Below are positions 1,124 to 26,775 of a stretch of 29,412 nt of DNA, piece by piece. A program made the translations under genes and the position numbers. The notes below the pieces were generated by a model that was not told the origin of the DNA, did no database searches, and was given only the letters and a program-made list of their open reading frames with translations. This stretch comes from a virus. Each line of letters opens with the position of its first letter. The stretch's first letter is position 1. The stretch lies in IMG/VR virus record IMGVR_UViG_3300005534_000034, positions 1-29,412 of that record, one strand, 5' to 3'.

Positions 1124-1258
1124 TGGGGATTCCGCGCCAAGACGAACGCGATTCCGGGGTGAACGCGAAAATCGTTCCGGGATGAAGGCGAACGGGATTC
1201 CGGGGTGATCGCGAACGAGGATTCCGGCGGGAAGGCGAACGGTTTTCGCTCAGAACCC
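1124..1258 (+). repeat. IS21 left-end multiple transposase-binding repeats
   Basis: After the terminal TGGGGATTCC, several degenerate copies of GCGAACGnGATTCCGGG follow, at about 1143-1159, 1161-1181, 1186-1205 and 1209-1228. The inverse orientation appears in the right end. Such subterminal repeat sets are characteristic of IS21 elements, where they bind IstA. Confidence 0.75.
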
Positions 1259-1372
1259 GGAATCGTTTTCGCGATGGCCCGGAATGATTTCCACAAGCAG
1301 AGTGACGCTGGACATCACAATGGCAAGACCTCCCTCTGAAAGTGAGGGAGATTGCCAGCCAGGAGACTGTCC

Positions 1373-2899
1373 ATGCGGAAACTCAAGGAGGTGCTTCGCC
1401 TCCGTCATGAACTGAAGTTGGGCTACCAGCAGATCGGGCGCAGTTGTGCGATCGCGACGAGTTCGGTGCACAAGTATCTGAAGCGTGCCGAGGCGGCCAA
1501 GATCACGTGGCCGTTGCCCGAGGGCTGGGACGAAACCAAGCTGGAAGCGGTGCTGTTTCCCGAAGACGCCAGCAGGAAACCGCCTCGCGCAGAACGCCCG
1601 TCGCCGGACTTCACACACATCCACCAAGAGCTACGTTCTAACAAGCACGTGACGCTGCAGTTGTTGTGGGAAGAATATCGCGCCGTGAATCCGGAGGGCT
1701 ATCGTTATTCGCGATTCTGTTATTTGTACCAGCGCTGGCGCGCGAAGCTTGATGTGGTGCTGCGGCAGGAGCACAAGCCGGGGGAGAAGATGTTTGTAGA
1801 TTGGGCGGGCGCGACCATTCCGGTGCACGATCCGCGGACGGGTGAAGCCTGGCAGGCTCCGCTGTTTGTGGCCGCACTGGGAGCAAGCTCCTACACTTGG
1901 GCTGAGGCCACGCGCGACATGCAGATGGAATGCTGGCTGAAAGCGCACGTCCACGCCTTCGAACATTTTCATGGAATCCCGTCGCTGGCGGTGCCTGATA
2001 ACACCAAGACCGGGGTAACCAAGGCGCACCGCTACGATCCCGATCTGAATCCGACCTATTACAACTTCGCCGGGCACTGCGGGTTCGGCATTGTTCCGGC
2101 GCGGCCGCGCAAGCCGCGCGACAAAGCCAAAGTAGAAAATGCGGTGCAAGTGGCCCAGAGATGGATCGTGGCGGCGCTGCGGCATCGCAAGTTCTTTTCC
2201 CTAGAGGACCTGAACGCGGCGATTGGTGAGCTACTTCACAACCTCAACCACCGGCCGTTTCGCAAAAAAGACGGAACGCGAGCCAGCGTGTGGGAGGCCG
2301 TGGACAGACCCGCCCTGAAGCCACTACCTTCGGAACCGTTCGACTTGAGTCAGTGGTCGCGGGCGCGCGTCAACATCGATTACCACGTCGCCTTCGATGC
2401 GAACTTTTATAGTGTGCCGTACAACCTCGTGCACGAACTGGTGGAGATCCGCTCGACGCCAACCATCGTTGAGATCCTGCACAAAGGCGCGCGCGTGGCC
2501 TCGCACCTGCGTCATCGCGGACGCGGACAGGCCGTCACCAACGACGAGCACCGCCCCAAGAGTCACCGCGCGCATCTGGAATGGACTCCTTCGCGCATGA
2601 TCCATTGGGCGGAAACCATCGGGCCGAACACAGCGCGTTTATTTGAGCGGATCATGAGCGACAAGCCGCATCCGGAAATGGGTTATCGCGGTTGCCTGGG
2701 CATCATCCGGTTGGCGGAGAAGTATTCAGCACGGCGCGTGGAGGCAGCGTGCGAGCGAGCGTTGCTCAGCAACGCCTGCCGCTACAAAAGCGTCGAATCG
2801 ATCCTGAAAAACTCGATCGATCAAGTGCCGCTATCTCCTTCGCCGCAGTCCTCCACTCCGCCGCACGATAATCTGCGCGGCCCGGAGTACTTCGAATAG
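1373..2899 (+). CDS. istA: IS21-family transposase IstA
   Basis: DDE recombinase that cuts and joins the element ends. The start at 1373 is chosen because AGGAG lies at 1361-1365, seven bases upstream, which gives 508 aa, normal for IstA. The N-terminus holds a helix-turn-helix (about residues 1-40, with the 'LGYQQIGRSCAIATSSVHKY' pattern). The catalytic core shows VDWAG (D143), VPDN (D209) and KAKVEN (E255), which together form the D-D-E triad, so the enzyme looks intact. A C-terminal beta-rich domain with 'YSVPYNLVHELVEIR' follows, as in the family. The istB gene starts 10 bases after the stop, so the two are expressed together. A promoter is probably inside the IS left end but is not clear. 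Family assignment is secure. Confidence 0.97.
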   Translation: MRKLKEVLRLRHELKLGYQQIGRSCAIATSSVHKYLKRAEAAKITWPLPEGWDETKLEAVLFPEDASRKPPRAERPSPDFTHIHQELRSNKHVTLQLLWEEYRAVNPEGYRYSRFCYLYQRWRAKLDVVLRQEHKPGEKMFVDWAGATIPVHDPRTGEAWQAPLFVAALGASSYTWAEATRDMQMECWLKAHVHAFEHFHGIPSLAVPDNTKTGVTKAHRYDPDLNPTYYNFAGHCGFGIVPARPRKPRDKAKVENAVQVAQRWIVAALRHRKFFSLEDLNAAIGELLHNLNHRPFRKKDGTRASVWEAVDRPALKPLPSEPFDLSQWSRARVNIDYHVAFDANFYSVPYNLVHELVEIRSTPTIVEILHKGARVASHLRHRGRGQAVTNDEHRPKSHRAHLEWTPSRMIHWAETIGPNTARLFERIMSDKPHPEMGYRGCLGIIRLAEKYSARRVEAACERALLSNACRYKSVESILKNSIDQVPLSPSPQSSTPPHDNLRGPEYFE

Positions 2900-2909
2900 G
2901 AGCAACCCC

Positions 2910-3647
2910 ATGCTACAGGAACCAATGATGGAAAAACTGTCGGCCATGCGCCTGTTCGGCATGCTGGATGCTTTGAAGGTCCAGGAGCAAGATCCGGCCA
3001 TGCGCGAGTTGAGCTTTTTGGAACGGCTGAGTCTGTTGGTGGATCAACAGTGGACCTGGCGCGAAAATCAAGCACTCGCACGCCGGCTGCAGGCAGCGAG
3101 ACTCAAAGGCGCCGCTGTCGAGGACATCGATTACCGCACCTCGCGCGGACTCGATAAAAGCGTGATTCGCGCACTGGCGCAAAAGTCCGCGTGGGTGGAG
3201 CAGCACGAAAACATCTTCGTACTCGGACCCACTGGTGTGGGCAAGAGCTTCGTCGCGTGCGCGCTGGCACAGAAAGCCTGCCGCGATGGATACTCAGCGC
3301 TGTACACGCGAGCGCCGGCGCTGTTCCGTGATCTAACAATCGCCCGAGCCGACGGTAGTCTGCGTAGTCTGCTCGCCCGGTTGGGCCGAATCGACGTGCT
3401 GGTGATCGACGATTGGGCCATGGCTCCTCTAGCCGAAACCGAACGGCGAGACTTCTGGGAGATCTGCGAGGACCGCTATCAAACGCGTTCGACGATCCTC
3501 ACTTCGCAACTGCCGGTGCTGCGTTGGCACGAACAGATCGGCGATCCCACTGCTGCCGACGGCATCCTCGACCGACTGGTGCATAACGCGCATCGGATCG
3601 AAATGCGCGGCGATTCCATGCGCAAGAAGCGCAGTGCTGCGAGCTGA
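2910..3647 (+). CDS. istB: IS21-family helper ATPase IstB
   Basis: AAA+ (DnaA/DnaC-related) ATPase that selects target DNA and stimulates IstA. It is 245 aa, the usual size. The N-terminal helical IstB domain (about residues 1-95) is followed by Walker A GPTGVGKS (106-113) and Walker B VLVIDD (163-168), with a sensor-like 'STILTSQLP' near 190-200. The C-terminus is basic (MRKKRSAAS). It follows istA by 10 bases in the same direction, the standard IS21 order. No frameshift or missing motif is visible, so the element should still be able to transpose. The alternative, a replication protein DnaC, is ruled out by context. Confidence 0.97.
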   Translation: MLQEPMMEKLSAMRLFGMLDALKVQEQDPAMRELSFLERLSLLVDQQWTWRENQALARRLQAARLKGAAVEDIDYRTSRGLDKSVIRALAQKSAWVEQHENIFVLGPTGVGKSFVACALAQKACRDGYSALYTRAPALFRDLTIARADGSLRSLLARLGRIDVLVIDDWAMAPLAETERRDFWEICEDRYQTRSTILTSQLPVLRWHEQIGDPTAADGILDRLVHNAHRIEMRGDSMRKKRSAAS

Positions 3648-3796
3648 CGCTCACAGGGCTTCTGAGTGCTGGGGCGGGGACAAGGGCTGCCGCCCCTTTC
3701 CCCGCACCCCTTTCTCCGCTTGCGGCTTTCTACCTTCGCTGCGCTCCGGACCGGTTTTCCTTGACGAACGCGAACACTTATTGCAAAATCAAACTG

Positions 3797-3890
3797 CCAG
3801 CGTCGCTACGCTCCGAGAATTTTCGCCTTCGGCCCGGAATGCCGTTCGCGTTCCTCCCGGAATCGATGTTCGCCTTCGGTGGAATCCCCA
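3797..3890 (-). repeat. IS21 right-end multiple transposase-binding repeats
   Basis: Read on the minus strand this end starts TGGGGATTCCACCGAAGGCG. It repeats the GCGAAC...ATTCCGGG motif at least three times (around 3872-3850, 3855-3830 and 3830-3815), mirroring the left end. The stretch 3648-3796 between istB and these repeats shows no gene. Confidence 0.7.
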
Positions 3891-4577
3891 GGTGCCCCGA
3901 AGCGAAGGGGATTGAAACCTGTTGGGTTGGGTTCTGCAAACCCAACCTTTACCGTGGCGGAGGTGCCCCGAAGCGAAGGGGATTGAAACGGCCGGTACGG
4001 GTGGTTGGGTATTAGTCTCGCCCAAGTGGCGGAGGTGCCCCGAAGCGAAGGGGATTGAAACACGTCGCCGTGGACCTTAACGCCGACCCAAATTTTCTCA
4101 GGTGGCGGAGGTGCCCCGAAGCGAAGGGGATTGAAACATTCCTGAAGTGTCAGGCTTGGAAATAGGAATCAACCCGTGGCGGAGGTGCCCCGAAGCGAAG
4201 GGGATTGAAACACGGCTACCTCCCCGTCCACTGCGGGGAGAGGTTTTGGGTGGCGGAGGTGCCCCGAAGCGAAGGGGATTGAAACAGACCGGCAACGCCG
4301 GCAGGGAGTGAGCAATCACTCCCGTGGCGGAGGTGCCCCGAAGCGAAGGGGATTGAAACTGCAACAAAACAACGCGGTCGACGAGACAACCGAGAGTGGC
4401 GGAGGTGCCCCGAAGCGAAGGGGATTGAAACCAAGCGCCGTCAGCCCGGCATCCTCGGCCAGCGCACCGGTGGCGGAGGTGCCCCGAAGCGAAGGGGATT
4501 AAAACGCGGTAAGACGACCGCGGGTACCAGTTTCTGTTGTGTGACGGAGGTGCCCCGAAGCGAAAAGGGATTGAAAC
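3891..4577 (+). CRISPR. CRISPR array, trailer part (right piece of the split repeat plus 9 repeats)
   Basis: The 28-base right piece of the interrupted repeat (3891-3918, starting with the duplicated GGTGC) is followed by repeats at 3954, 4026, 4102, 4176, 4250, 4324, 4396, 4470 and 4541, giving nine spacers of 35-40 nt. The first seven full repeats are identical to those left of the IS. The repeat at 4470 ends ATTAAAAC. The last (4541-4577) is 37 bases with GTGACGG and an extra A run (GCGAAAAGGGA). Decay at this end marks it as the trailer, so these are the oldest spacers. The whole array holds 25 repeats and 24 full spacers. Transcription from the leader now has to cross the 2.8-kb IS to reach this half. 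Confidence 0.98.
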
Positions 4578-4918: not shown

Positions 4919-6991
4919 ATGGCGACTCTCTCCACGATTCCATCGGTGCCGACGGGGCGGACGCCGGTACGTTTGGCTTCCCACCTTTTCGCGGGGGCGA
5001 TTGCCCTACTGTTCCTGCTAATCATGGTCGCGTTGCGGACGCGGCCGGATGCGGTCCACGGGGGCGCATATCTACGCGCATTCGTGGCGCGGAGCGCCGA
5101 CTTTGCGTTCTTCGGGGCTGCGCTTAGCGCTTTTGCCGCGCTGACATTCAAGTGCCGCGTAACGAAGGCTGCAACGATTGGAGCACTAGCCGCGGTGTTC
5201 GTTCAGATCCTGCTGACCTTATGGCTCGCCTGGCAATACGACGGGCTGTTAATCCAGAGAGCGAGCGATGTCCGGCAACAGCTTGGCGTCATTACGGTCG
5301 ACAGACCAGACGGGCCGATCTCCGTAAAGGCGCTAGCAGGCGCCAATTATTCGCTGAACGATCCAGTCGGGGAGATCACCAAGACCGAGGAGTCGCTTCT
5401 ACTGGCCGCCGAGGATGAACGTTTCCTTGACCGCATCACGAACGTTGACCCGATCGCGCTAATACGCGCCGCCTTCGCCTCTTTCGAACACTATGCTCTG
5501 CACCGGAAACAACGGCAGGGCGCTAGCGGCGTTTCGGAGCAGGTGAGCGGCTTTCTTGTGGGCATACGCCCGGGGCTGAGCGCGGGAATGTGGCGCGAAA
5601 AAGTCGTCAAGATGTTAGTCGCATTTCGAGTTGACGACCGCTTCTCGCGGGAACAGATCGAGCGGCTTTATCTTTCCATGTGTCCGTTCGGAACCGCAGG
5701 TGGGCATGAGGTGATCGGGATTGCGAGCGCCGCAGGCGTATTCTACGGCGTCGACCATACGCAGCTCACAATTGCGCAGGCGGCGGAACTCATGGCGCGT
5801 CTCAAGGCTCCGAGCGTGTTGTTCCCTTACAAACGCGATGGGGAGGATGAGCCCAGGTTTGAACAGCGACTGAATCGACTTCGCGAGCGCATGGAGGCCG
5901 TTCTGAACGTTGCCGAGCACAGAGGGTGGATCACAGGCGCCCAGCGACGCGAGGCGGCCGATCAGTTTCTCAGTGCACTCGCAACTCCTTCGCAAGCGGC
6001 TGCGAGGGCACATGTTGAGCATGCTACGTCATTGTTCGAGGCAGTTCGCAAAGTTGTGCCCGAGGCTCATGCCCGTCATCTCGAAGTTGCAGTGCATGAG
6101 GACGCGGCGCTCGAAGCTGTACTCATGAAGGCAGTACGAGACGGTATTGCGGAGTTCACACCACGGCTGCCGGTTCGGCAACATCACGACGACCACGTTG
6201 ATGTCGACGCCGTACTAATCGACGGATCGGGCGCGATTCTGGCTCAGACCGGACTGGTAAACGAACCCGATGACATGGCCTCGCAAATCAAGCCGGAGCA
6301 CTATGCACTCGCCTTGCAGGAAGGTATCTTGACCTCAATGCATGAGCGCATTCCGGGCCGGCACGATCTCGCGGAGGACGGTCTGGCGCATAGCATTAAC
6401 GAGGACGCATACGCAGTGGCGCGGGCTATTGGGCTGCCGAAGGTGGTGGAACACCTGCGCACACAGGGATACCACGTGGTTGGGCCGTATCTTCCAGTGG
6501 TGATCGGCGCCGGAGTGACGGGGTCGCCCATGCTAGTCGCCGGAAATTTCCTGAAGTTCTCGTACGATCGGCCAGGGTACCGGGTGGAGGCCTCGCCGAT
6601 CGCATCCATTACTGACGCGAACACCGGGGCCGTGTTGTATGAACCGGCCCGTGCGCGAGTATTCCGGCCGGAGGTGGCGGAGCAAGTGCGGTCGGCGATG
6701 GAGAAGGTCAGTTCGCACGGAACGGCAGCGCGGCAACTTTCGCGCCTGACGGAGGAACATCCTATTGCGGCAAAGACCGGCACTGCAGGATTCTTCCGCC
6801 GGGGCTATTGGCAGGGCAGAGGTGGGTCGTGGTGTATCGCAATCGATTCGGCGACGGGGTATATCACCACGGTACGCGTGCGTTGGCGAAGCGGTAGACC
6901 GCTCGAGTTGGAGGGCGGCAGCAGCGCTGCATTAATTGTGCGTGAGGTTATCGCGGGATCTCGCGTTTTGGAGAAAGGAGGTAGTCGATGA
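4919..6991 (+). CDS. Divergent class A penicillin-binding protein (GT51 + transpeptidase)
   Basis: 690-aa membrane protein of the bifunctional peptidoglycan synthase family. Hydrophobic segments lie at about 22-40, 60-77 and 85-106, more than the single anchor usual for the family. The GT51 domain follows: 'AAEDERF' (E165, catalytic Glu of motif 1), 'GASGVSEQ' (201-208, where GGSTxTQQ is usual), 'EKVVKMLVAFRVDDRFS' (227-243, where RKxxE is usual), 'IERLYLSMCPFG' and 'LTIAQAAELMARLKAPS'. The C-terminal transpeptidase keeps all three motifs: SQIK (S455, K458), SIN (492-494) and KTGT (619-622). The transpeptidase should therefore work on peptide crosslinks, while the glycosyltransferase looks altered. 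It is the first gene of the operon, and its stop overlaps the next start by ATGA. The start codon has only a weak upstream GGGAT, so the exact start is moderately sure. The domain call is firm. A role specific to this operon is inferred. Confidence 0.9.
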   Translation: MATLSTIPSVPTGRTPVRLASHLFAGAIALLFLLIMVALRTRPDAVHGGAYLRAFVARSADFAFFGAALSAFAALTFKCRVTKAATIGALAAVFVQILLTLWLAWQYDGLLIQRASDVRQQLGVITVDRPDGPISVKALAGANYSLNDPVGEITKTEESLLLAAEDERFLDRITNVDPIALIRAAFASFEHYALHRKQRQGASGVSEQVSGFLVGIRPGLSAGMWREKVVKMLVAFRVDDRFSREQIERLYLSMCPFGTAGGHEVIGIASAAGVFYGVDHTQLTIAQAAELMARLKAPSVLFPYKRDGEDEPRFEQRLNRLRERMEAVLNVAEHRGWITGAQRREAADQFLSALATPSQAAARAHVEHATSLFEAVRKVVPEAHARHLEVAVHEDAALEAVLMKAVRDGIAEFTPRLPVRQHHDDHVDVDAVLIDGSGAILAQTGLVNEPDDMASQIKPEHYALALQEGILTSMHERIPGRHDLAEDGLAHSINEDAYAVARAIGLPKVVEHLRTQGYHVVGPYLPVVIGAGVTGSPMLVAGNFLKFSYDRPGYRVEASPIASITDANTGAVLYEPARARVFRPEVAEQVRSAMEKVSSHGTAARQLSRLTEEHPIAAKTGTAGFFRRGYWQGRGGSWCIAIDSATGYITTVRVRWRSGRPLELEGGSSAALIVREVIAGSRVLEKGGSR

Positions 6992-8067
6992 GAGGCCCGT
7001 TTTTGACGATGGCGGCGATGGTGATAGCGCAGGCGCAAGTTTCACTGACCGTGGGATTAGATACCTCGCGCAGCGAGGCGACGGTGTGGGCCGAGGCGCA
7101 AAGCGAGGCCAAGCGGATCATTGAGACTCTGCCCGACGGGACGCATGCCACTATCTTCACCCTTGGTGGAAGCGTGCACCGTGTGTTTGATGGAAACATC
7201 AATTCAGCACGCCGTTCAGAGGCGCTGCGGCAGTTGGATGCAGCGCGGCCCGCGGAGATGAATACCGATCTGGCGGCTGCGATGGCCGACAGCGTCGCTA
7301 GCATGAATGGTTTGCCTGGCCGTCACATCTTTGTGCTCATTTCTGACTGCAAGAACATGCCGGAACGCAAGAGCCATTATCGTGGGCGAAGTTTCCAGCA
7401 GGTTTTAAACGAGGTGAAGCTGCCGGCCGGAACGGAGTTGTTCGTGCGCGTAACTGGAAATGAGCCGCTGTCATCATCGAAACCGGGTATTAGCATCCTG
7501 CGAACTTTGCCGGACTGGCGCGCCGTGCTGCGGTTACAGGCGCCCGTACTTCCGCCGAAATCTTCACCCGCGCCCGACTTTCATCGTTGGTTGCTCGCGG
7601 CGGCCATCGCGGTTGCCCTAATGGTCGTGTTGGTGATCGTGCTTGTTCGTCTGCGCCACGCACCTAACAATGATGGGGCGGAGTTGGAAGCTGCCGTGGA
7701 GTTTCCCATAGAAGAACGTCTCCCGTCGAGCGACACGTTAGAAGGGATGACGTACACCGTACAGCGGGCGGGCTCACTTGAGTGGGTCTCACTGGGAACA
7801 GAGGACCGGAGGGAGATAACCATCGGCGACGATCCCCTGGCCGAGATTGAGGTCGCGGGCGCGGAAGGAGTGCTGCTGCGGTTGGAGTTGGCGTTGGATG
7901 ATCGAATGACGCTCGCCAATATCGGACGTGCGCCTGTGCGGGTAGGTAAGAAGACAATTGCCCCAGGGGTTCGGCAGACGCTGCCACCGGGCGGCGCGCA
8001 GATCGGAATCGGACGCGAGGTTTTCGAGGTGTATCCGGAGATGGTTATCAAAACGGTGGAGAGGTGA
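6988..8067 (+). CDS. Signal peptide-VWA-TM-FHA-like membrane protein
   Basis: 359 aa. Residues 1-16 form a short signal sequence (ending AQA). A von Willebrand A-type domain follows with a complete MIDAS: DTSRS (D25, S27, S29), T93 in 'EMNTDL' and D120 in 'LISDCKN'. This predicts metal-dependent protein binding outside the cytoplasmic membrane. One strong TM helix lies at about 201-221, then a basic RLRH. The cytoplasmic C-terminus (about 250-350) has the strand pattern of an FHA domain ('ITIGDDPLAEIEV', 'IGIGREVFEV'), but the phosphothreonine-binding IGR...S..H residues are absent (IGDD here), so phosphopeptide binding is doubtful. It starts inside the stop of the PBP gene and ends just before the tubulin-like gene. 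By topology it could bridge a periplasmic partner (the PBP) and a cytoplasmic one. VWA call firm; FHA-like call tentative. Confidence 0.8.
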   Translation: MRGPFLTMAAMVIAQAQVSLTVGLDTSRSEATVWAEAQSEAKRIIETLPDGTHATIFTLGGSVHRVFDGNINSARRSEALRQLDAARPAEMNTDLAAAMADSVASMNGLPGRHIFVLISDCKNMPERKSHYRGRSFQQVLNEVKLPAGTELFVRVTGNEPLSSSKPGISILRTLPDWRAVLRLQAPVLPPKSSPAPDFHRWLLAAAIAVALMVVLVIVLVRLRHAPNNDGAELEAAVEFPIEERLPSSDTLEGMTYTVQRAGSLEWVSLGTEDRREITIGDDPLAEIEVAGAEGVLLRLELALDDRMTLANIGRAPVRVGKKTIAPGVRQTLPPGGAQIGIGREVFEVYPEMVIKTVER

Positions 8068-8072
8068 ATCGC

Positions 8073-9119
8073 ATGGAGAAGAGCCTGAAGTACTTGGAAC
8101 GTTACGTGTTTTCGCCTTTGGTGTTCGTAGCGTTGGGTGGAATGGCGTCGGTTCTTTTATTGGTGCTGCGCGCGCGGATGATACAGGTTTTGGGGTGTTT
8201 GCCCGAATGCATGCGCTGGCTGGCGATCGATTTCGGGTCTGATGCGCCACAGGCTCCGCGAGCACAGTTCAGCCGCGAGGTCACCGCGCAGGAGTGGGAC
8301 GCGGCAGAACTCGCGCCGGGGGAACTATGCCTGTTGTCTTTCGGCGGATTGGAACGGGAGATCGCGCAGAAAATGCGGTCCAAAGATCCGAGTTGGACGT
8401 GGTTGGAAGGTGTGCTGGCGGCGGATGTTTTAGACGAGTACACAGGCGCTGAAGGCTCGCAGATTCCCATGCTGGTGCGCGGCGCCCTGGCCGCGTGTGC
8501 TGACGACCCGGAATTGTCAGGCGGAATTTCTTGGGTGGACATGTTGAGCGCAGCGCTCGCCGACGTTGCACCGAATGGGAAAGCTATGCATGATCTAACG
8601 ACGAAGCGGGACTTGCCAGACGGGTCGGTACTGCGCGCGAAGCCGACGATCGTGATCATTGTGGGCGGTGAAGGTGGCACCGGCAGCGGGGCGCTGCTGC
8701 CCGTATCGATCGCCGGGCGATGGCTAGCGACGAAGCGAGGAATAGAGGCGGCAATTCACGGCCTCGTGCTAGCAGGACACTATCGGCCGCAGGACGGTCA
8801 AGAAGACCGGAAATCGGCGCTGAATTATGCGTTGGATAAGGATGTGGAATATGCCATGGAGCGGTCGCGCGATGCTCTGAGTTTCCGCTTAGGTGCGGAC
8901 GTTGCCGCGGAGCAAGTGGGTCCGCTGTTCGATGAAGTGCACCGACTGGAGGCCACGGGACGCCTGCAGCACGACGAGAAGGCCGTGTTGGAGTCGGCCG
9001 CGGAGATGCTCTTGTATTTCTACACCACAGCGGCGGGATGGAGTATCCGGAAGTCGCGGGCGAATAACCTTATGCGACCCGCGATGTTGCGGTTGGAAAA
9101 TGAAAGGTCATGGGATTGA
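8073..9119 (+). CDS. Tubulin/FtsZ-like protein (short, Tubulin_2-like)
   Basis: 348 aa from ATG 8073, chosen because GGAGAGG (8058-8064) lies eight bases upstream; GTG 8064 is the alternative. The signature loop GGEGGTGSG at 198-206 follows strand 'PTIVIIV' and matches the tubulin/FtsZ nucleotide-binding GGTGSG motif. The N-terminus (15-36, 'LVFVALGGMASVLLLVLRARM') has the strand-Gly loop-helix form of the first nucleotide-binding element, followed by 'MRWLAIDFGSD' (48-57), as in large bacterial tubulin-like proteins where a VWA gene is a known neighbour. The first loop is degenerate (GGMAS where GGTGS is usual), and the protein is much shorter than the roughly 1000-aa relatives I know, so a normal C-terminal half is missing or encoded separately downstream. 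The N-terminal hydrophobic run could be misread as a TM segment. GTP binding and polymerisation are inferred. Confidence 0.65.
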   Translation: MEKSLKYLERYVFSPLVFVALGGMASVLLLVLRARMIQVLGCLPECMRWLAIDFGSDAPQAPRAQFSREVTAQEWDAAELAPGELCLLSFGGLEREIAQKMRSKDPSWTWLEGVLAADVLDEYTGAEGSQIPMLVRGALAACADDPELSGGISWVDMLSAALADVAPNGKAMHDLTTKRDLPDGSVLRAKPTIVIIVGGEGGTGSGALLPVSIAGRWLATKRGIEAAIHGLVLAGHYRPQDGQEDRKSALNYALDKDVEYAMERSRDALSFRLGADVAAEQVGPLFDEVHRLEATGRLQHDEKAVLESAAEMLLYFYTTAAGWSIRKSRANNLMRPAMLRLENERSWD

Positions 9120-9136
9120 CGAGGAGGGCTATGCCG

Positions 9137-10741
9137 ATGCTGAAGAAGGGCGAAGCGAGCTTCATTTGGAATGCGCGCGCCGTTGCGAAGCTCGTTAAGG
9201 GCGAGCGGCTGGATCGCGCGGTCGCCATCGCGACTGTCCTTTTTTGGCTTCGAGATTGCGAGGTGGACGCAAGAAGGGCCGTTGTCGATCATGAATGGTT
9301 TCGCGACGGCCGGGAAGCAGTTACGGCGGTGGGCGACCGCTTGAACAAACCTGAGTTTGGTGATCAGGTCCGAGCAGCAATCGCGAGGGCGGATTCCGAA
9401 GGGATGCCGGGCCCCGACGAGGTACGGCGGATACTGGAGCGGCGTCTGCGGAAGCACGGAGCGGATGCAGGCACCATAGCCCATGAAGTGACTGACCGAA
9501 TGCAGGCGGCTGTGGACCCGGCGAATCCTTACTCGCATGAGACCTTGTCGCGTTTGGTGGAGGAACGCACCGCAACTGTGCGCGAACGGGCGTCGGAAAG
9601 TTCTGCGGTTCTCGAGGGGCAATCGAATGCGCTGGCGGCAGAACTTAGCGGCCAATGCAATGAAGCGGAACGACGGTTGGAAGGCTATCGCAGGGCTATA
9701 ACGCCCACTCAGACCACAGCTTTTGCGAACGTGCGTAGAGAAATATGGGCTGCAGCGATATGCGCGGCCACGGGTGCTGTAGGGGCGATGTTGTTCGGAG
9801 CCACAGCCAATATCCTGATCGTATGTTTTGTGACGTCAGGTGCAGCGGGATTTCTGGGAGCGCGACGTTGGCAGGCGCTACACGCCGCTGCGGAAGGTGA
9901 GGCATCAATCGAACGACCAGCTCGCATCGTGCGGAGTTTGTACCGGCCGGCATGGGAAACGCTTGCTCGGCACCTCGAATCGGTTGCAGCGGCAGATGCA
10001 CGGCGCTTTGAGGTTGAGATCGCGGATGCAATTTTGGAGCAGGTGACAGCCGGGGACTCGGATGGCCGAGCCAAAGCACTATGCGGCTGCTTGGAAGCGG
10101 AGATGACTGCGCTACCCGAAGGTTGCTTCGTAGAGCCGCACCCCGGACGGGTGGAGTTATACGGCCGTGCACTGGCTGAGGTTGTGGCTTCGAAGCAGAT
10201 GACGCCACCGGTAACGGCGGCAATGCGGGTAGCGTTCTTGCGGATGAGATGCGAGCCCGCGGCGGCCACGGCGGAAGCGTTGGTACAGGTAGCAGGAGAC
10301 GTGCTGGGTGAGCTTGTTTTGAGCGAATTGGTAGAGATCTTGCGCGAAGCCGGATGGGGTCAGAAGCTGACGCGGTGGATAGACGATTTACGCGCCGCAG
10401 CGTCTTCGGTTGTAGGGATGCAACGCGGGTTGCGTCGAGAACGGGACCTGTCACCGGAGGTGCACTCGATTGGTTTGCCGGGAGGAGCCTCGGATCCGTG
10501 CGCGCCCTGGATGCTGCAACGTTTTCCCGGCGCTGCGATCGTGACGGGTTCGGACCCGGAAGCAATCGAGTTCCTTTATGACATATCGAATCTGAATGCG
10601 GAGCGGTTGCAGACCCATTGTGCTGGGAGGGACGCTTATGAGGCGACGAGCAAGTGGCAACGCTATTTGATGCATTTCCCGCGGCGGCGGCGAGGTCTCG
10701 TGGAGATACCAGGCGAAGATTGCAGGGCTGCCGGGGATTGA
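9137..10741 (+). CDS. Coiled-coil protein with central membrane hairpin, unknown function
   Basis: About 534 aa. ATG 9137 is preferred because GAGGAGGG (9121-9128) lies eight bases upstream; ATG 9131 and ATG 9110 (overlapping the previous stop) are alternatives. The N-terminal ~200 residues are charged and helical ('VRRILERRLRKHG', 'VEERTATVRERASESS'). Two adjacent hydrophobic segments, roughly 203-221 and 223-240, would form a membrane hairpin, followed by more alpha-helical sequence. The last ~100 residues are different: 'VHSIGLPGGASDP...FPGAAIVTGSDPEAIEFLYDISNL', globular in look. I do not recognise the family. As the last gene of the PBP-VWA-tubulin operon, it could be the membrane-tethered partner, or the separated C-terminal half, of the short tubulin-like protein. 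Its stop at 10741 ends the tight gene spacing. Coding is firm; function unknown. Confidence 0.75.
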   Translation: MLKKGEASFIWNARAVAKLVKGERLDRAVAIATVLFWLRDCEVDARRAVVDHEWFRDGREAVTAVGDRLNKPEFGDQVRAAIARADSEGMPGPDEVRRILERRLRKHGADAGTIAHEVTDRMQAAVDPANPYSHETLSRLVEERTATVRERASESSAVLEGQSNALAAELSGQCNEAERRLEGYRRAITPTQTTAFANVRREIWAAAICAATGAVGAMLFGATANILIVCFVTSGAAGFLGARRWQALHAAAEGEASIERPARIVRSLYRPAWETLARHLESVAAADARRFEVEIADAILEQVTAGDSDGRAKALCGCLEAEMTALPEGCFVEPHPGRVELYGRALAEVVASKQMTPPVTAAMRVAFLRMRCEPAAATAEALVQVAGDVLGELVLSELVEILREAGWGQKLTRWIDDLRAAASSVVGMQRGLRRERDLSPEVHSIGLPGGASDPCAPWMLQRFPGAAIVTGSDPEAIEFLYDISNLNAERLQTHCAGRDAYEATSKWQRYLMHFPRRRRGLVEIPGEDCRAAGD

Positions 10742-11447
10742 AAGTGATGTCCTAACGATCAACAGAAGATCCCGTCATGAAAGCGTGACGAAGTTTCAGA
10801 CCTGGCCTTCGGCGGATCTCGGCTTGAAAATCGGTAGAACGCCGATTACAACTGCGTTCTTCCTCAGGAACCCTCCCGAGCAGACGACCAGGCGTTGATT
10901 GACGATATCGGGGCTGGCGAGGCCGTTGTTGGCCAAGCGAGTCATTAAGTCGGCCTGAGAAGCTAGCCCTGCATCTGTTCCTCGCAACCAAACGCGATGC
11001 GCGTGGCCATTCAGAACGGAGAGTGCAAGAGTCGCTATCGAGAGAGCGCGGAAAACAAAGAAGCGTCATCCCGGACGGATTCTTGCCTCCGATGTTGGCA
11101 TCGAGCGTCTCGGCTGTCTGAGCTCGTAGTGAGATGAAGTTTGCTCGCCTGGCTTCGATTGGCCCCGAAACGAGAACCAGGAGAAGCTGCTGAGGCTGCG
11201 GACTCTGAAATACATCTTCCCCACAGTTGCATCCGCTCTGTAAAGCCTTTGTCAACCTGAGAACCTCGCACGTGAATGTCATCGTTCTAAGCCTTCGGCC
11301 CGTTGCTTTCCACAGCTTTGGCAATTCAAACTGTGACGAGCCTGTCGGCTGGCATTGTCGGTGGCTGAATGACGCGAGCACCCCCAATGTCGGTTGCACA
11401 AAGGGGGTCAGAAAGCACGCGACCGGCGAAGGGGAAGCCTTGTCTAA
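10742..11447. other. Gap between the operon and the phage block, with weak minus-strand coding remnants
   Basis: No credible complete gene is seen in 706 bases. On the minus strand 11065 to 10796 reads, without an ATG, 'FFVFRALSIATLALSVLNG...WLRGTDAGLASQADLM...FLRKNAVVIGVLPIFKPRSAEGQV' then a stop. It looks like a real protein end with a signal-like start. A second minus-strand frame further upstream ('LLLVLVSGPIEARRANFISLRAQ', about 11200-11090) reads into it with a shift. This could be a decayed secreted-protein gene. A short inverted repeat CGTCA/TGACG lies near 10777-10794 without a T run. No tRNA or attachment-site duplication was recognised. Confidence 0.3.
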
Positions 11448-11722
11448 TGGAGCGTAAGAGGCGCCAGGATAAGCTCGATGGGATCGATTACCGGAATATC
11501 AGCACTACGATCGGGTCGGCCGGATGGCAATTAATTCGTGAGAGGCTTCAACTGGCGCTTGCTCGGAAGGTGGATGACCTGGTGTTACCGCACAACGAGA
11601 CGGAGACAGCGACGATACGGGGCTTTATTGCCGGCTTGAAGACTGCTCTCGAGATTCCCGCGATCTTGCTGAAGGAGGCTAAGGAGAATACGCGCGATGG
11701 GGACGGCACATCCGGGATTTAG
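11448..11722 (+). CDS. Small phage-block protein, unknown
   Basis: 91 aa from ATG 11448. The frame is open further upstream, but that part is low-complexity and unlike protein. The sequence is helical and charged with 'SAGWQLIRERLQLALARKVDDLV' and 'ATIRGFIAGLKTALEIP', a pattern common in short proteins of phage head regions that sit between larger packaging genes. Its end overlaps the next start (11697). No function is assigned. It opens the co-directional phage cassette that runs to 27381. Confidence 0.6.
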
Positions 11723-11903
11723 AGCAGCTCAGGGCGAGATTGCGAAGCGAGAGGGGATCTCGCAGGAACGCGCGGGTGCCATTCTCGCCAGCCGTACGCG
11801 CGGCGCTTCCGCGACGGCGAAACGCGAGAACCCGCGGCTGAAGAAGGTCAAAAGTGCGACGAAGCCGTGGCACAAGCAGCTCGCCGAAAGGATGCTGTCG
11901 TGA
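11697..11903 (+). CDS. Small basic phage-block protein
   Basis: 68 aa, strongly basic ('TRGASATAKRENPRLKKVKSATKPWHKQLAERML'), beginning 'MGTAHPGFRAAQGEIAKREGISQERAGAILA'. An AAGGAG lies just upstream (about 11691-11686), inside the previous gene. The helical N-terminus and lysine-rich tail resemble small DNA- or RNA-associated phage proteins, but I cannot name a family. It overlaps its upstream neighbour by 26 bases, and its TGA overlaps the GTG of the next gene. Confidence 0.6.
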   Translation: MGTAHPGFRAAQGEIAKREGISQERAGAILASRTRGASATAKRENPRLKKVKSATKPWHKQLAERMLS

Positions 11904-12160
11904 GGCCGGGTCGATCAAGCGCGATCCGCAGCATGACGATCGAGCCGGCGCAGGGCGGATTCACCTCCACGGTTCGGCGGTTTCCGTCCAAAAGCCGGGA
12001 CATGTTCACGGAGCCGGAACAACCTACCATCCATCCTTCCATCGAGCATCTGCAGGCTCACGTCGGCAAAATGTTTGGCCCAGGCAGGAAGGCACGCGCG
12101 CCGCAGTTCGCGAAGACCTCATCGATGCAGCGCGTCATCGCGGGAAACCTGTTGCGGTAA
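11900..12160 (+). CDS. Small phage-block protein, unknown
   Basis: 86 aa from GTG 11900, which overlaps the previous stop as GTGA. ATG 11933 is the alternative and gives 75 aa. 'MTIEPAQGGFTSTVRRFPSK' followed by 'HPSIEHLQAHVGKMFGPG' has the strand-strand-helix look of short phage accessory proteins. No motif allows a function. Its TAA shares an A with the next ATG, so the small genes here are translationally coupled. Confidence 0.55.
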   Translation: MRPGRSSAIRSMTIEPAQGGFTSTVRRFPSKSRDMFTEPEQPTIHPSIEHLQAHVGKMFGPGRKARAPQFAKTSSMQRVIAGNLLR

Positions 12161-12321
12161 TGCCTTGGGACACGAAAGATGCGACGCGCCACACCAAGAA
12201 GGCGCGCACGCCGAAACTCAAACGAATGTGGCAGCAAATCGCCAACTCCATGCTGGCGCGCGACGCTTCTGAACGAGCGGCTATTCGCGGAGCCAACTCG
12301 CAGGTGGCGAAGCGTACGTGA
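12160..12321 (+). CDS. 53-aa conserved phage-type protein (PWDTKDATRHTKKA)
   Basis: 53 aa from ATG 12160 (TAATG overlap with the upstream stop). The sequence starts 'MPWDTKDATRHTKKARTPKL' and continues 'RMWQQIANSMLAR...ERAAIRGANSQVAK'. From memory this MPW..KDA.RHTKKA...IREAN pattern recurs in small proteins of phages and bacteria, with no settled function. It is basic and helical. The stop TGA overlaps the GTG of the zinc-ribbon gene. Confidence 0.75.
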   Translation: MPWDTKDATRHTKKARTPKLKRMWQQIANSMLARDASERAAIRGANSQVAKRT

Positions 12322-12680
12322 TTTCGCCCCTCGCGTTTGGCATTGTTGTCGGCGTCCGCTGCCACTACTGCTCTCGATTCTGCAATCCGCTTGAGGTGGT
12401 GAATTTCGGTGAGTCCATGGTGCGGTGCTGGCGCTGCCAAGAAAAGCACCAAGCGGCGCTGGAGTTCATGGCTGGCTATCCGCCCAAGGCCTGTGGCGAG
12501 TGTGGCATTACGTTCGCGGAACTGGCGGCCGCTACCGCCGAACCGCACGTGTCCATGTTCGTGCATTGGAAGGACGGGTTGTACCAACTGCTCTGCTCGC
12601 GTTGCGACGCCAAGTACGTCGAGCAGCGCAAGGACCTCTACGGTCCGACGCGTTTCGGCCTGGAGCGGAAGCTGCGATAA
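12318..12680 (+). CDS. Double zinc-ribbon protein of the phage block
   Basis: 120 aa from GTG 12318, overlapping the previous stop as GTGA. It has four CxxC knuckles: CHYC (15-18), CWRC (37-40), CGEC (59-62) and CSRC (93-96), which is enough for two zinc ribbons. Between the second and third pairs is a helix ('HQAALEFMAG'), and the C-terminus reads 'YVEQRKDLYGPTRFG'. Zinc-ribbon proteins of this size near phage head genes often bind nucleic acid or the large terminase, but no partner gene is visible here. The zinc-binding call is firm; the role is not known. Confidence 0.75.
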   Translation: MISPLAFGIVVGVRCHYCSRFCNPLEVVNFGESMVRCWRCQEKHQAALEFMAGYPPKACGECGITFAELAAATAEPHVSMFVHWKDGLYQLLCSRCDAKYVEQRKDLYGPTRFGLERKLR

Positions 12681-12776
12681 ACCGCGGCAACTAATGGGCT
12701 GGGGAAGCCTTCCCGTTGGATCTCGCCGTAGTATCCGAGGCTCTCCCCAATTCAAGCGAAAGGATGCACATCCCGT

Positions 12777-13418
12777 ATGGCAGACCCCATTCCGGATACG
12801 AAGGTTCCGGACACACAAGAGGATTTTGAGAACCGATCTCAGGAGAACGCCCAGGAAGGCAGCGACTCGCAGGCCGCTTGGGAAGTCAACCGCAAGCGAA
12901 CGTATGACCTCTACCAGTTTCAAGAAGTCGCTGAAATCATCGAGGCACGGAAGCTCCTGTCTTCGGCATTCCATCAGTCGCAGAAGGATCTGGCGGCGCT
13001 CAACAACCTAACCATTCAGGCTCTCAGTAACAACCTGACGACCATTCACAAGATCAACACCGACGCGGCCGAGGCAGCGGTCTCGACGCGGGCCCAGGTG
13101 TTGAAGCATGCCGACGTGGCCATGGACGGCCTATGGACGGATCAACTCAACCCCGTCGAACGTGGGGCGGGCAACGTGCTGAACGGCCAGGCACCTGTCA
13201 ATGCTCAACTCGCCGGCACGGGGTCGCTCGACACCGTGTTCACCAACCTCTCAGCGCAGAATGGCCAACTCATCGCCGGCTACGTTACGCTTGCGCAGGC
13301 ACTCTCGCAATCGAACGTCAACATCAGCCAGAGCCAGACGGCTATTACCGCGGCGCTGGCAGAGATCGTGGCGCAACTGAAAGGCGGGGCTGGTAAGGTG
13401 GCCCCCGCAGCGGCCTAG
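12777..13418 (+). CDS. Phage-block hypothetical protein, helical, Asn/Gln-rich
   Basis: 213 aa, preceded by AAAGGA at 12759-12764. After an acidic, disordered N-terminus (1-30) the protein is a run of helices with many N and Q residues ('LNNLTIQALSNNLTTIHKINTDAAEAAVSTRAQVLKH'), then a Gly/Ala-rich part and a further helix of 'VNISQSQTAITAALAEIVAQL'. This composition suits an elongated or oligomeric virion protein. I do not recognise the family. It ends in TAG, and the same frame stays open through the following 102 bases into the next gene. Confidence 0.65.
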   Translation: MADPIPDTKVPDTQEDFENRSQENAQEGSDSQAAWEVNRKRTYDLYQFQEVAEIIEARKLLSSAFHQSQKDLAALNNLTIQALSNNLTTIHKINTDAAEAAVSTRAQVLKHADVAMDGLWTDQLNPVERGAGNVLNGQAPVNAQLAGTGSLDTVFTNLSAQNGQLIAGYVTLAQALSQSNVNISQSQTAITAALAEIVAQLKGGAGKVAPAAA

Positions 13419-13420
13419 AA

Positions 13421-13478
13421 CTCCCCATACGGGAGACCGCCGGGCGGAGCGGATTCACGATCCGCAACGTCCGGCGGT
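13421..13478 (+). promoter_or_regulatory. Nested inverted repeats between two phage genes
   Basis: CTCCC (13421-13425) pairs with GGGAG (13431-13435) around five bases. ACCGCCGG (13436-13443) pairs perfectly with CCGGCGGT (13471-13478), enclosing a second hairpin GCGGAT (13449-13454)/ATCCGC (13460-13465). There is no T run, so a plain intrinsic terminator is unlikely. The element sits directly after a TAG stop and before a GTG start that lacks a Shine-Dalgarno site, so a translational role is possible. Confidence 0.5.
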
Positions 13479-13520
13479 GGACCAACGGTTGTTTGGGAAG
13501 ACTGGCAATTAACAAAGCGA

Positions 13521-14405
13521 GTGGCAGAAGAAATTCAAGAAAAAATCGATCCGGGCGCTCCGTTTCCCATGGATGACGAGCAGCCCGCTGTACCAGCAGC
13601 ACCGGAGAAACCGGCACCGCAGGCGAAACCGGAGAAGACACCCGAGCAGAAGCGCATCGATGAACTGGAGGCGCAACTCCAGCAGACCAACAAGCGCGTC
13701 GAAGAGCTGACCGCTTCGGAGCGTTACTGGGCTGAACGGGCGCGCGGCGCTGCGGCTGAGCCGGCTGCGGACGACGACTCGACCTACGAAGACGACGATT
13801 TTGCGCGGGGCGATCCCGAGCGGCGTTCGACCGCAGCGGCGGAAGAAGAGACGGAGAAACCCGAGAAGTTTTTGGACGACCTGAGCGCAAGCGGTCTGAA
13901 GGCACTCAAGGCGCGCGGCGTGCTGACCCAGGCTCAATTCGATGAGCGCATGCAGCAACTGGAGCAGCGCATTGAGGCGCGGTTCCAACAACAGCAGCAG
14001 CACAATGCCATCGACGCGCAATTGGCCAAGTACCCGGACCTGCAGAACCAACAATCCGCGTTGTTCAAGGCGGCGCAGGTGCATTTCCGGCAGATGGTGG
14101 CCGACGATCCGAAAATGAAGGATTCGCCAGCGGCACTTTTGTCGGCGGTGCGCATGGCGCAGCGGGAGTTAGACCTGGAGGCAAAAGTGGCGGCAACGAG
14201 TGGCAGCGAGCAGCGCGAGTCGCGGCGCGAACGTATCCAGCGGCAGATGCCGGAGCGGCCGGCGGCGGGGCACACCGAGGACGAGCCGGGTCCGGATATG
14301 CTCTCACCGCAGGCGCGGCAAATCGTGTCGCACCTCTCGCGGTTTGGCGCCAGCGAGGACGGTTTCCGGCGCTTTGCCTCGCGCCCTGAAAGGAACGGGC
14401 GCTAA
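13521..14405 (+). CDS. Probable phage scaffold-like protein
   Basis: 294 aa from GTG 13521. No ATG is available upstream and no clear Shine-Dalgarno is present; ATG 13569 is a later option. The N-terminus is acidic and Pro/Ala-rich, followed by a coiled coil ('EQKRIDELEAQLQQTNKRVEEL', about 50-72), an acidic low-complexity stretch, 'LSASGLKALKARGVLTQAQFDERMQQLEQRIEARFQQQQQ', and a basic C-terminal tail. Charged coiled-coil proteins of this kind immediately upstream of capsid genes are commonly scaffolds that template capsid assembly. Assignment rests on composition and position, not on a diagnostic motif. Confidence 0.6.
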   Translation: MAEEIQEKIDPGAPFPMDDEQPAVPAAPEKPAPQAKPEKTPEQKRIDELEAQLQQTNKRVEELTASERYWAERARGAAAEPAADDDSTYEDDDFARGDPERRSTAAAEEETEKPEKFLDDLSASGLKALKARGVLTQAQFDERMQQLEQRIEARFQQQQQHNAIDAQLAKYPDLQNQQSALFKAAQVHFRQMVADDPKMKDSPAALLSAVRMAQRELDLEAKVAATSGSEQRESRRERIQRQMPERPAAGHTEDEPGPDMLSPQARQIVSHLSRFGASEDGFRRFASRPERNGR

Positions 14406-15100
14406 TGGCGGAGCGCGGTGCGGGCGGTAAGTTCGTGAAGAAAGCACAGGCACAGGGCGTGGGCGAGTCGAGGATCTTCGTTGCACCCGAGGGCTCCTTC
14501 CCACCCGGTACGGTTGATTGGTCGACGCTCACCGTTGCCGGCAAGCCGATACCCGAGCATTTGTGGGGCCTGGTTCCCTACGCGCAGACCGACCAAGGCA
14601 GAGCCGAGAACAACGAAGGCAAGCAGGAGCGCGCGGCGGAGATCGTGCGCACTGAAGAGTCGAAGCGCATCGAGCGCTTTCGAGATTTCCAGTTCGATGG
14701 GGCCGAGCCTGGTATGGGCGATCCCATGAAGGAGCTGGTGGACCAGCACGTCCAACCTGGCCAGCATCCGCGGTTTCTCTCGCCTCGTTCCTTCCCGGTG
14801 CACGGTACGCGCGGATACGAAAAAGTTCTGGATTCCGAGGGCAACCCCGTAATGTTCGGGGATATGTATCTCGGAGTGATTCCGCAAGATGAAGCGATCA
14901 AGCGGGAGAAGCGAGACGCGGCCCTCGCACGGCAGATGATGGTCGATGCTCAAGATACAGTCCGCGAACAGACCGAGCAGATCATGAGTGAGCGCGATAT
15001 GCGCTCCCTGGCTCGCAGGCGCGGCACTCTGGAGTATGTGGCCGGTATGCAGTCTGAGGATGGCGAGGAACTGCGACACGAGTTTCTGGTAGGGCAGTAG
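14405..15100 (+). CDS. Phage-block hypothetical protein upstream of the head genes
   Basis: 231 aa. ATG 14405 shares a base with the previous TAA, and AAAGGA lies at about 14389. The N-terminus 'MAERGAGGKFVKKAQAQG' is basic. The middle contains 'PEHLWGLVPYAQTDQGRAENNEG' and 'HPRFLSPRSFPVHGTRGYEKVLDSEGNPVMFGDMYLGVIP', and the C-terminus is helical and charged. I do not recognise a family. The position between the scaffold-like and decoration-like genes suggests a head assembly or internal virion protein. Confidence 0.6.
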   Translation: MAERGAGGKFVKKAQAQGVGESRIFVAPEGSFPPGTVDWSTLTVAGKPIPEHLWGLVPYAQTDQGRAENNEGKQERAAEIVRTEESKRIERFRDFQFDGAEPGMGDPMKELVDQHVQPGQHPRFLSPRSFPVHGTRGYEKVLDSEGNPVMFGDMYLGVIPQDEAIKREKRDAALARQMMVDAQDTVREQTEQIMSERDMRSLARRRGTLEYVAGMQSEDGEELRHEFLVGQ

Positions 15101-15151
15101 GGCAGAGCAGTAAAGAAGGAGCGACAAGGCCGGACACCCCGCGTGAGGCAC

Positions 15152-15241
15152 ACACCTCCCTAGTCTGGCTGCCGAGCGGCGCGCGCGATTCGGCGACGTC
15201 TCCCACGAAGCAGCGCAACTGAAACGACACAGGGGAGGTGT
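15152..15241 (+). promoter_or_regulatory. Long-range stem in the leader of the head genes
   Basis: ACACCTCCC (15152-15160) is perfectly complementary to GGGAGGTGT (15233-15241), a 9-bp stem that encloses about 70 bases with an inner GCCGA/TCGGC pair (15171-15175 and 15190-15194). The right arm contains the GGGGAGG that would serve as ribosome-binding site for the small leader frame at 15250, so pairing could hide it. Confidence 0.4.
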
Positions 15242-15249
15242 AGACGGAC

Positions 15250-15309
15250 ATGCAAACTCAAGGCCTGTGCTTGTCAGCGGATAAGCAGGGGCACAAAGGA
15301 GGCCTCTAG
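15250..15309 (+). CDS. Possible 19-aa leader peptide
   Basis: ATG 15250 to TAG 15307-15309 encodes MQTQGLCLSADKQGHKGGL. A GGGGAGG lies 11 bases upstream. The end of this frame covers the AAGGAGG that is the ribosome-binding site of the next gene (ATG 15313), and a GGCCT/AGGCC mini-hairpin spans its stop. This arrangement would couple translation of the leader to the decoration-like gene. It could also be chance. Confidence 0.3.
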   Translation: MQTQGLCLSADKQGHKGGL

Positions 15310-15312
15310 GCC

Positions 15313-15867
15313 ATGTCGAACGTGAACAATCCGCACGGGCTGCGGCCTTTAATGCGGTGCCTAAACGGTGGGGCACCGCAGCTTGAGCAGTACACCAAGC
15401 CGGCGGGCTACGCGTACGCGATCTTTAAGTGGGATCCGGTGACGCTGCTGGTGACGGGCTACCTCGGGGCGGCGGCGCATGATATTACGCCCGGCACGAC
15501 ATACCTGCTGGGGGTGGCGTTGGAGTGGGCGCCGGCCTCGCAGCTGTCGAACCACAACATCATGGTTTCACCCGATGCCATTTTCGAGATTCAGGACGAT
15601 GGCTCGAGCGATGGCACGAATAGCGGTTTCCAGGAGCCTGCCGACCGCGGACAAAACGCCAACCTGGTGCTGACCACGGCCGGCGGCGGAGTGACGCGCG
15701 ATAACTCAGGGGCGCAGCTGGCCTATTCGTCGCACGCCACGACGTCGACGCTCGATCTTAAAACGTTCAAGCTCTTGAACGAACCAGACAACGCGTCGGG
15801 AGCGAATGCCCGTATCGAGGTACGCATTAATAAGCATCTGTTGTCGGCAGGGGTGGCAGGAGTTTAG
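15313..15867 (+). CDS. Phage capsid decoration-like head protein
   Basis: 184 aa with a strong ribosome-binding site (AAGGAGG, nine bases upstream). The N-terminus 'MSNVNNPHGLRPLMRCLNGGAPQLEQYTK' matches the 'NAPFGLRPVR...GG...Y' opening seen, from memory, in small head proteins encoded directly before the major capsid gene of many tailed phages. The rest is beta-rich and Gly/Thr-rich ('GTTYLLGVALEWA', 'TTAGGGVTRDNSGAQLAYS'). The role as decoration or stabilising protein is inferred from this resemblance and from its position two bases before the capsid gene. Confidence 0.65.
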   Translation: MSNVNNPHGLRPLMRCLNGGAPQLEQYTKPAGYAYAIFKWDPVTLLVTGYLGAAAHDITPGTTYLLGVALEWAPASQLSNHNIMVSPDAIFEIQDDGSSDGTNSGFQEPADRGQNANLVLTTAGGGVTRDNSGAQLAYSSHATTSTLDLKTFKLLNEPDNASGANARIEVRINKHLLSAGVAGV

Positions 15868-15869
15868 CG

Positions 15870-16790
15870 ATGGAAGTCACAGGGAACTTTTCGGATTTCT
15901 ACAATACGACCATGCTGCCGGCGCTGCGGGCGGTGATTGATCGCGGCTACAGGCCCTATCCGCAGCAGTACTCACAGATCTTCAACGTGCTCACATCGAA
16001 TCGCTCGATTGAGCAGTTTAGCCAGGTCTCGGGCGTTGGCCGCTTCGCGGTGATCAACGAGGGCCAGGCTGTACGCAGGGATCAGCCGGTGCAGGGCTTC
16101 AAATCAACGTTCCAGCATACGCGCTTCGGTCTGGCGGTGCCGACGACGATCGACGTTGTCGAAGACGATAAGTGGGACCTGGTCGGCAACAGCCATAGAG
16201 ATCTCGGCTGGTCGTGCTCCGAGACGCAGGAGCTCGATGCCGCGAGCACCTTCAACCTCGGCTTCAATGCCGCCTATCCGGGGCCGGACGGCGTACCGTT
16301 GTTCAGCGCATCGCACCCTCTCTACAAGGTTGGAGGGCTGCAAGCCAATATCCTGGCGGTCGCGGCCGATCTCGACATGCTGTCTCTACAGCTGGCGCTT
16401 ACAGCGTTCAGCCTAATGAAGCGTCCGTCAGGCGAGTTCATCCACGTACCTGCACGAAAGCTCATCATTCATCCGACCAACGCCTGGCTGGCGCACGCGC
16501 TTACCAAATCGCCTGATGATCCCTCGACTGCTGACCGCAGCATCAACCCGCTCGGTGCGGCGATTGACGGCATTCCGAAACCCTTTACCTGGCGATACCT
16601 GACGAGCACGACGGCCTGGTTTATCGTGGCTGAGCCGCAAGATACAGGCCTGGTGTGGTTCTGGCGCAAAAAGCCGTACACGAAGTCGTGGACGGACGAT
16701 GATACCGAGGTCGGCGTGACGGCACTCCGCTATAAGAAGTCGCACGGCTGGAATAACTATATCGGCGTGTATGGCACGCCGGGGGTGTAA
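15870..16790 (+). CDS. Major capsid protein, HK97-fold (Mu gpT-like)
   Basis: 306 aa, AGGAG at 15858-15862. Forms the icosahedral head shell. The diagnostic part is 'DGVPLFSASHPLYKVGGLQANIL' near residues 140-162, matching the LFSAxHP...G...SN stretch of gpT-type major head subunits, followed by a helix 'LDMLSLQLALTAFSLMK' and 'VPARKLIIHPTNAWLAHAL', all typical of the family. The N-terminal arm ('LPALRAVIDRGYRPYPQQYSQIF') and the E-loop region are also recognisable. The C-terminus 'KKSHGWNNYIGVYG' resembles the closing strand of such proteins. Length is normal for the family. This is the best anchored gene of the phage block. Confidence 0.85.
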   Translation: MEVTGNFSDFYNTTMLPALRAVIDRGYRPYPQQYSQIFNVLTSNRSIEQFSQVSGVGRFAVINEGQAVRRDQPVQGFKSTFQHTRFGLAVPTTIDVVEDDKWDLVGNSHRDLGWSCSETQELDAASTFNLGFNAAYPGPDGVPLFSASHPLYKVGGLQANILAVAADLDMLSLQLALTAFSLMKRPSGEFIHVPARKLIIHPTNAWLAHALTKSPDDPSTADRSINPLGAAIDGIPKPFTWRYLTSTTAWFIVAEPQDTGLVWFWRKKPYTKSWTDDDTEVGVTALRYKKSHGWNNYIGVYGTPGV

Positions 16791-16792
16791 GG

Positions 16793-17209: not shown

Positions 17210-17227
17210 GGCGACAACTTCACAGCG

Positions 17228-26769: not shown

Positions 26770-26775
26770 GCGGGC

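Follow-up and report, generated by a model that had tools for sequence, protein, structure and literature searches.

Here, a four-gene operon was analyzed that joins a divergent class A penicillin-binding protein (PBP) to a membrane-spanning VWA protein with an FHA-like tail, a short tubulin-like protein of the Tubulin_2 (FtsZ-like 1, FtsZl1) family and a helical membrane protein. It lies on IMGVR_UViG_3300005534_000034, a contig of 29,412 bases from a viral collection, which is called the window in its full length and the left part of which is mostly non-viral. We tentatively favor, with a confidence slightly short of even, the reading that the operon is a compact form of the vWA-FtsZl1 envelope module, encoded on an acidobacterial chromosome and extended by a dedicated PBP, the two being coupled for local wall work. 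The VWA-tubulin pair is already known, and the new part is the PBP. Positions of all features are compiled in Table 1.

TABLE 1. Positions of the operon genes and of neighboring features in the window.
Feature	Position	Strand	Description
5-bp duplication	1119-1123 and 3891-3895		GGTGC, flanking the IS21-type element
IS21-type element	1124-3890		istA and istB (Pfam), ends TGGGGATTCC...GGAATCCCCA; inserted inside a CRISPR repeat
Gene 1	4919-6991	+	Divergent class A PBP: three predicted TM segments, glycosyltransferase (150-325), transpeptidase
Gene 2	6988-8067	+	Signal peptide, periplasmic VWA, TM (196-227), cytosolic FHA-like domain (approximately 255-359)
Gene 3	8073-9119 (ORF 8064-9119)	+	Short divergent Tubulin_2 (FtsZl1) domain without C-terminal extension
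Gene 4	9131-10741 (ORF 9110-10741)	+	Helical, possibly coiled-coil protein
Phage structural genes	11450-27381		Prophage
SU10_adaptor genes	20009-20695 and 22010-22762		Two genes within the prophage
Secreted protein	28101-29412		Laminin_G_3 domain and repeated TPCR(L/V)(V/A)DTRG segments; cut by the contig end

Gene content and predicted topology of the operon

The four genes are intact, co-directional and overlapping, and the ORFs agree with the initial annotation in their common direction and in the ATGA shared by genes 1 and 2 at 6988-6991, an overlap which suggests translational coupling. Good ribosome sites are present for genes 2-4. For gene 3, the ATG at 8073, preceded by GGAGAGG, is a more likely start than the GTG at 8064, and for gene 4 the ATG at 9131, with GAGGAGGG upstream, is more likely than the alternative start of the ORF at 9110. 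With a start and a ribosome site of its own, gene 4 is initiated separately rather than being a tail of gene 3 split off by a frameshift.

Gene 1 was recognized by the Pfam families Transgly (6e-24) and Transpeptidase (3e-9), and in an alignment with ten acidobacterial PBPs its SQIK, SIN and KTGT motifs, which had been noted in the initial annotation, fell on the active-site motifs SxxK, SxN and KTG; the transpeptidase motifs are therefore intact. In the same alignment, motif 1 of the glycosyltransferase domain is kept (EDERF) and the Glu of motif 3 (RKxxE) is replaced by Lys. The motif-3 Glu matters for glycosyltransferase activity in the PBP family, so that one catalytic domain of gene 1 may be dead; judged from the alignment, the enzyme probably has little or no glycosyltransferase activity. 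The three TM segments predicted at the N-terminus would imply a periplasmic location of both domains. Gene 1 thus resembles class A PBPs such as PBP1A/1B in combining glycosyltransferase and transpeptidase domains, the latter with intact motifs, but differs from them in the motif-3 Lys and the three predicted TM segments, and its product is short, with 690 aa as compared to approximately 840 aa in acidobacterial PBP1A-like proteins. These peculiarities argue against a displaced housekeeping PBP. Comparison of gene 1 with phages by tblastn returned generic glycosyltransferase matches only, relatives were not found in viral contigs, and a single-sequence query run without a positive control detected no ortholog in 250 genomes of the acidobacterial order.

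The signal peptide, MIDAS and TM segment previously noted for gene 2 were confirmed: its VWA domain carries the MIDAS motif (DTSRS...NTD...SD) and matches NCBIfam acidobact_VWFA at 5e-5. Of the profiles with which the genes were to be searched, Transgly, Transpeptidase and Tubulin_2 gave matches, the Pfam match to VWA was marginal (0.085), and the FHA-like C-terminus of gene 2 had no match in Pfam. Structure prediction with one or two sequences as input yielded models of low quality (pLDDT 45-48). In the low-confidence, single-sequence model of gene 2, residues 28-180 aligned to VWA structures and residues 255-359 to FHA structures (VIA-align, Z 7.1-5.5), the best rows for the C-terminus being the FHA domains of TIFA, EssC and DgcB (Z 7.1-5.8). 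By inspection, the residues with which FHA domains contact phosphothreonine seem to be missing.

The tubulin-like nature of gene 3, also proposed in the initial annotation, was upheld by the Tubulin_2 profile PF13809 (33.6 bits at a cut-off of 27, residues 21-315) and by an independent profile of 19 acidobacterial sequences, with which it scored 36.7 bits as compared to 5.5 for the best of 2000 shuffles. The T4 loop is kept, GGEGGTGSG being aligned with AGGTGSG of the relatives. The T1 loop is altered and reads ALGGMAS where GxGGTG is expected, and with a T1 loop so degenerate the use of GTP is uncertain. The chain ends at 351 aa and bears neither a coiled coil nor a helical C-terminal domain, a feature of the majority of FtsZl1 proteins that is not universal. 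When a 17-sequence profile including gene 3 was compared with the PDB, FtsZ and TubZ came first, weakly. With the model of gene 3 (pLDDT 45), rows 1-23 of VIA-align were all tubulin, CetZ or FtsZ at Z 8.5-7.1, where values below about 8 can reflect a common arrangement, and Foldseek gave no significant match. An N-terminal TM helix flagged by a hydropathy scan at residues 13-40 was rejected, as by alignment this segment corresponds to the T1 loop and helix H1.

For gene 4, a double TM segment and a coiled coil had been suggested. Its one hydrophobic stretch (210-253) is compatible with a TM hairpin, and the coiled coil is only hinted at by a Pfam Apolipoprotein match at 0.044. No family match and no recognizable relative was found for gene 4, the search of viral contigs included. 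A resemblance to the C-terminus of FtsZl1, seen by eye (IGLP...SDP...IEFL), led to the candidate assignment of gene 4 as its split-off part, which was discarded after a profile test gave 1.9 bits, within the range of shuffles.

In the predicted topology the VWA and PBP domains are periplasmic and the FHA-like and tubulin domains cytosolic, which supports the possibility of a trans-envelope link. Following this, we propose that the short tubulin-like protein would assemble beneath the inner membrane, where gene 4 and the FHA-like tail of gene 2 would hold the assembly. The VWA domain of gene 2 would bind a periplasmic partner through the metal site of its MIDAS, for which the PBP of the operon or a ligand bound to the wall would be the simplest candidates, and the state of the cytosolic assembly would thereby be passed to the PBP, which would cross-link peptidoglycan locally through its intact transpeptidase. 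With its glycosyltransferase probably weak or inactive, the PBP would depend on another glycan polymerase. In the divisome and elongasome, FtsZ or MreB directs PBPs, and the arrangement proposed here would follow a similar logic, with wall enzymes of the periplasm steered by a filament protein in the cytosol; however, another branch of tubulins is involved, FtsA/FtsW-type partners are lacking, and the link would use the VWA/FHA protein. That a non-FtsZ tubulin is indeed wired via a VWA/FHA adaptor to its own transpeptidase, as a minimal single-operon machine for tubulin-directed wall building, seems to us somewhat doubtful. The locus also suggests the idea that, besides those of FtsZ and MreB, other couplings of cytoskeleton and wall have evolved in bacteria.

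CRISPR array, prophage remnant and probable host

From left to right, the window holds a CRISPR array split by the IS21-type element, the operon, the phage genes and the Laminin_G_3 protein. The array is composed of 36-nt repeats, of which 22 are exact, one has a mismatch, one is interrupted and one, at the right end, is degenerate. This degenerate repeat lies on the side of the operon and suggests that the trailer end of the array faces it. Inspection of the ORFs in the window revealed no cas gene, and the significance that had been attached to the adjoining array was not borne out. Comparison of the spacers with the local and related phages gave matches no longer than 11-16 nt, and the core of the repeat was not found in viral contigs. 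Close to the right end of the array (3919-4323), three spacers can form strong hairpins (-14.8 to -20.3 kcal/mol), in contrast to most of the others.

The record is classed as viral, and phage genes begin on the same strand approximately 0.7 kb downstream of the operon, as would be expected if the operon belonged to the virus and altered the host envelope. However, eight contigs with capsid proteins 72-75% identical to that of the prophage share similarity with the window only from position 11450, and in the three of them that were opened (L171, L172, and L176) a gene of approximately 730 aa, which would occupy the portal position, lies just before this point and is itself preceded by a terminase-like gene, confirmed by PHROGs for L172. 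Neither terminase nor portal is present in the prophage of the window, none of the four operon genes was found in the related phage contigs, and genes 2-4 have no PHROG match. Since the related phages carry a terminase and the gene of approximately 730 aa at the place of the operon, and lack the operon genes, the operon does not belong to the phage. Moreover, both ends of the window are host-like, with the CRISPR array on one side and the Laminin_G_3 protein on the other, and we consider phage cargo hardly credible. Judged from this comparison of sequences, the contig is host DNA joined to a prophage that lost its packaging end, and the operon is not viral. An erroneous assembly of operon and prophage near 11 kb would also account for a prophage that breaks off exactly at the expected portal position in a single metagenome contig. 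As GC content is uniform over the first 13 kb, such a join appears very improbable, and it would leave the operon unaffected, which is continuous through its overlapping genes.

The repeated segments of the Laminin_G_3 protein are, as we assume, of a kind known from Acidobacteriota, and together with the acidobact_VWFA match of gene 2 they make an acidobacterial host likely. The operon is that of a soil-type bacterium, probably an acidobacterium.

Known systems and the neighborhoods of related genes

The partners described for FtsZl1 comprise vWA, kinase, GTPase and OmpA proteins, and a role in membrane remodeling was proposed (Makarova and Koonin, 2010, PMC2875224); a 2023 paper (PMC9871819) supports the identity of FtsZl1 with Tubulin_2, and action of the FtsZl1/vWA operons at the membrane has been proposed in two studies (PMC2875224; PMC7159879). 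The operon shares with these vWA-FtsZl1 operons a Tubulin_2 protein with the glycine T4 loop, a membrane vWA protein with MIDAS immediately upstream, and a predicted membrane complex (PMC2875224). By contrast, their tubulins mostly comprise approximately 760-1500 aa, whereas gene 3 encodes 348-351 aa with a degenerate T1 loop and without a fused coiled coil, and none of the kinase, GTPase and OmpA partners was recognized by Pfam among the four operon genes. The PBP, too, sets the operon apart: a term search of the text of Makarova and Koonin (2010) found no mention of penicillin-binding proteins.

Of 396 genomes from the acidobacterial phylum, 22-27 carried Tubulin_2 genes. The corresponding figures were 31-32 among 122 genomes for the phylum to which a 'Deltaproteobacteria' bin (G004) belongs, 5 among 125 for the verrucomicrobial phylum and 0 among 130 for the phylum that includes a Gemmatimonadetes bin; the well-matching proteins mostly had 760-1500 aa. 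In acidobacterial FtsZl1 loci, the gene just upstream typically encodes a signal peptide, a VWA domain, a TM segment and a small cytosolic domain, as gene 2 does, and by a loose test a VWA-like gene lay upstream in 29 of 51 loci. The expected VWA-tubulin neighborhood therefore recurs in other genomes. The co-occurrence of all four genes does not: a PBP gene was found in none of the 51 FtsZl1 neighborhoods from three phyla (loci in which a tubulin gene could be called, the fetched stretches being no longer than 20 kb), and the PBP profile, built without gene 1, detects gene 1 at 1e-37. Genes 2 and 3 thus represent the known pairing and the PBP the novelty. Of the trans-envelope machine put forward in the initial annotation, the domains, the operon, the topology and the recurring VWA-tubulin pair stand, and the link to the PBP is putative.

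With one locus known, the PBP may be a chance neighbor, in which case genes 2-4 would form a minimal vWA-FtsZl1 module unrelated to wall synthesis and the upstream PBP would merely be co-transcribed. The absence of PBP genes from the 51 loci is in line with this, as is the fact that no close relative with a recurring gene set was found. However, the ATGA overlap and the unusual features of gene 1, which is not a displaced housekeeping PBP, argue against it, and we consider a chance neighborhood unlikely.

A class of GTPase-tubulin-vWA conflict systems unites tubulin domains and coiled coils with an extracellular vWA domain borne by a membrane protein (Kaur et al., 2020, PMC7159879). The operon resembles these GAP1-N2 systems in the tubulin, the coiled coils, and the extracellular vWA and beta-rich domain on a membrane protein, and its surroundings include a CRISPR array and the remnant of a prophage, so that a related defense system with the PBP as envelope effector was considered. 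However, Pfam detected no member of the GAP1 TRAFAC GTPase family among the four operon proteins, FNIII, HSP70/GrpE, STAND and a known effector were likewise not recognized in the operon, and a PBP is present; the word penicillin is absent from Kaur et al. (2020). Moreover, PADLOC, consulted on the defense role suggested earlier, gave no match, the array turns its degenerate end towards the operon and is accompanied by no cas gene in the window, and the adjoining prophage is a truncated remnant. A role in defense is therefore quite improbable. The earlier statement that no system with this gene set had been described holds for the PBP, but not for the vWA-FtsZl1 operons (2010) or the combination of tubulin, coiled coil and extracellular vWA (2020).

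For FtsZl1/Tubulin_2 proteins, known from descriptions since 2010, our literature search found no experimentally established function. A small FtsZl1 module encoded together with an enzyme whose chemistry is known gives a point of entry to the class, and if the PBP is a client of the module, the whole class would become testable by wall-labeling assays.

No close relative of gene 3 was found in 396 phylum and 399 class acidobacterial genomes by single-sequence searches, which were run without a positive control, so that absence is not proof; those of the weak matches among the 396 genomes that were opened were spurious. Single-sequence search of viral contigs and tblastn against plasmids found none either. 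With a DNA pattern of the T4 loop, two viral matches turned out to be tail-type proteins, and none of 18 genome matches encodes a relative of gene 3 (tblastn). Alignment-based searches, in which one alignment included an artificial-copy row made to steer the choice of pattern, found only a large FtsZl1 on the viral-collection contig L097, where, within 5172-13242, a large membrane VWA-like gene directly precedes a Tubulin_2 gene of 1551 aa.

In L084, L087, L088, and L091, a second large gene downstream of FtsZl1 starts like the T1 region of Tubulin_2 with altered loops (e.g., GLGKHG, GYGAYG, and GLNDFG), and these second genes are possibly degenerate tandem paralogs. A separate, short Tubulin_2-like type of approximately 495 aa, at 8390-9874 in L060 and 9109-10599 in L061, is followed by a gene of approximately 1100 aa, and in L061 a VWA-like protein (FYLDGSGS) and a small membrane protein are encoded ahead of it.
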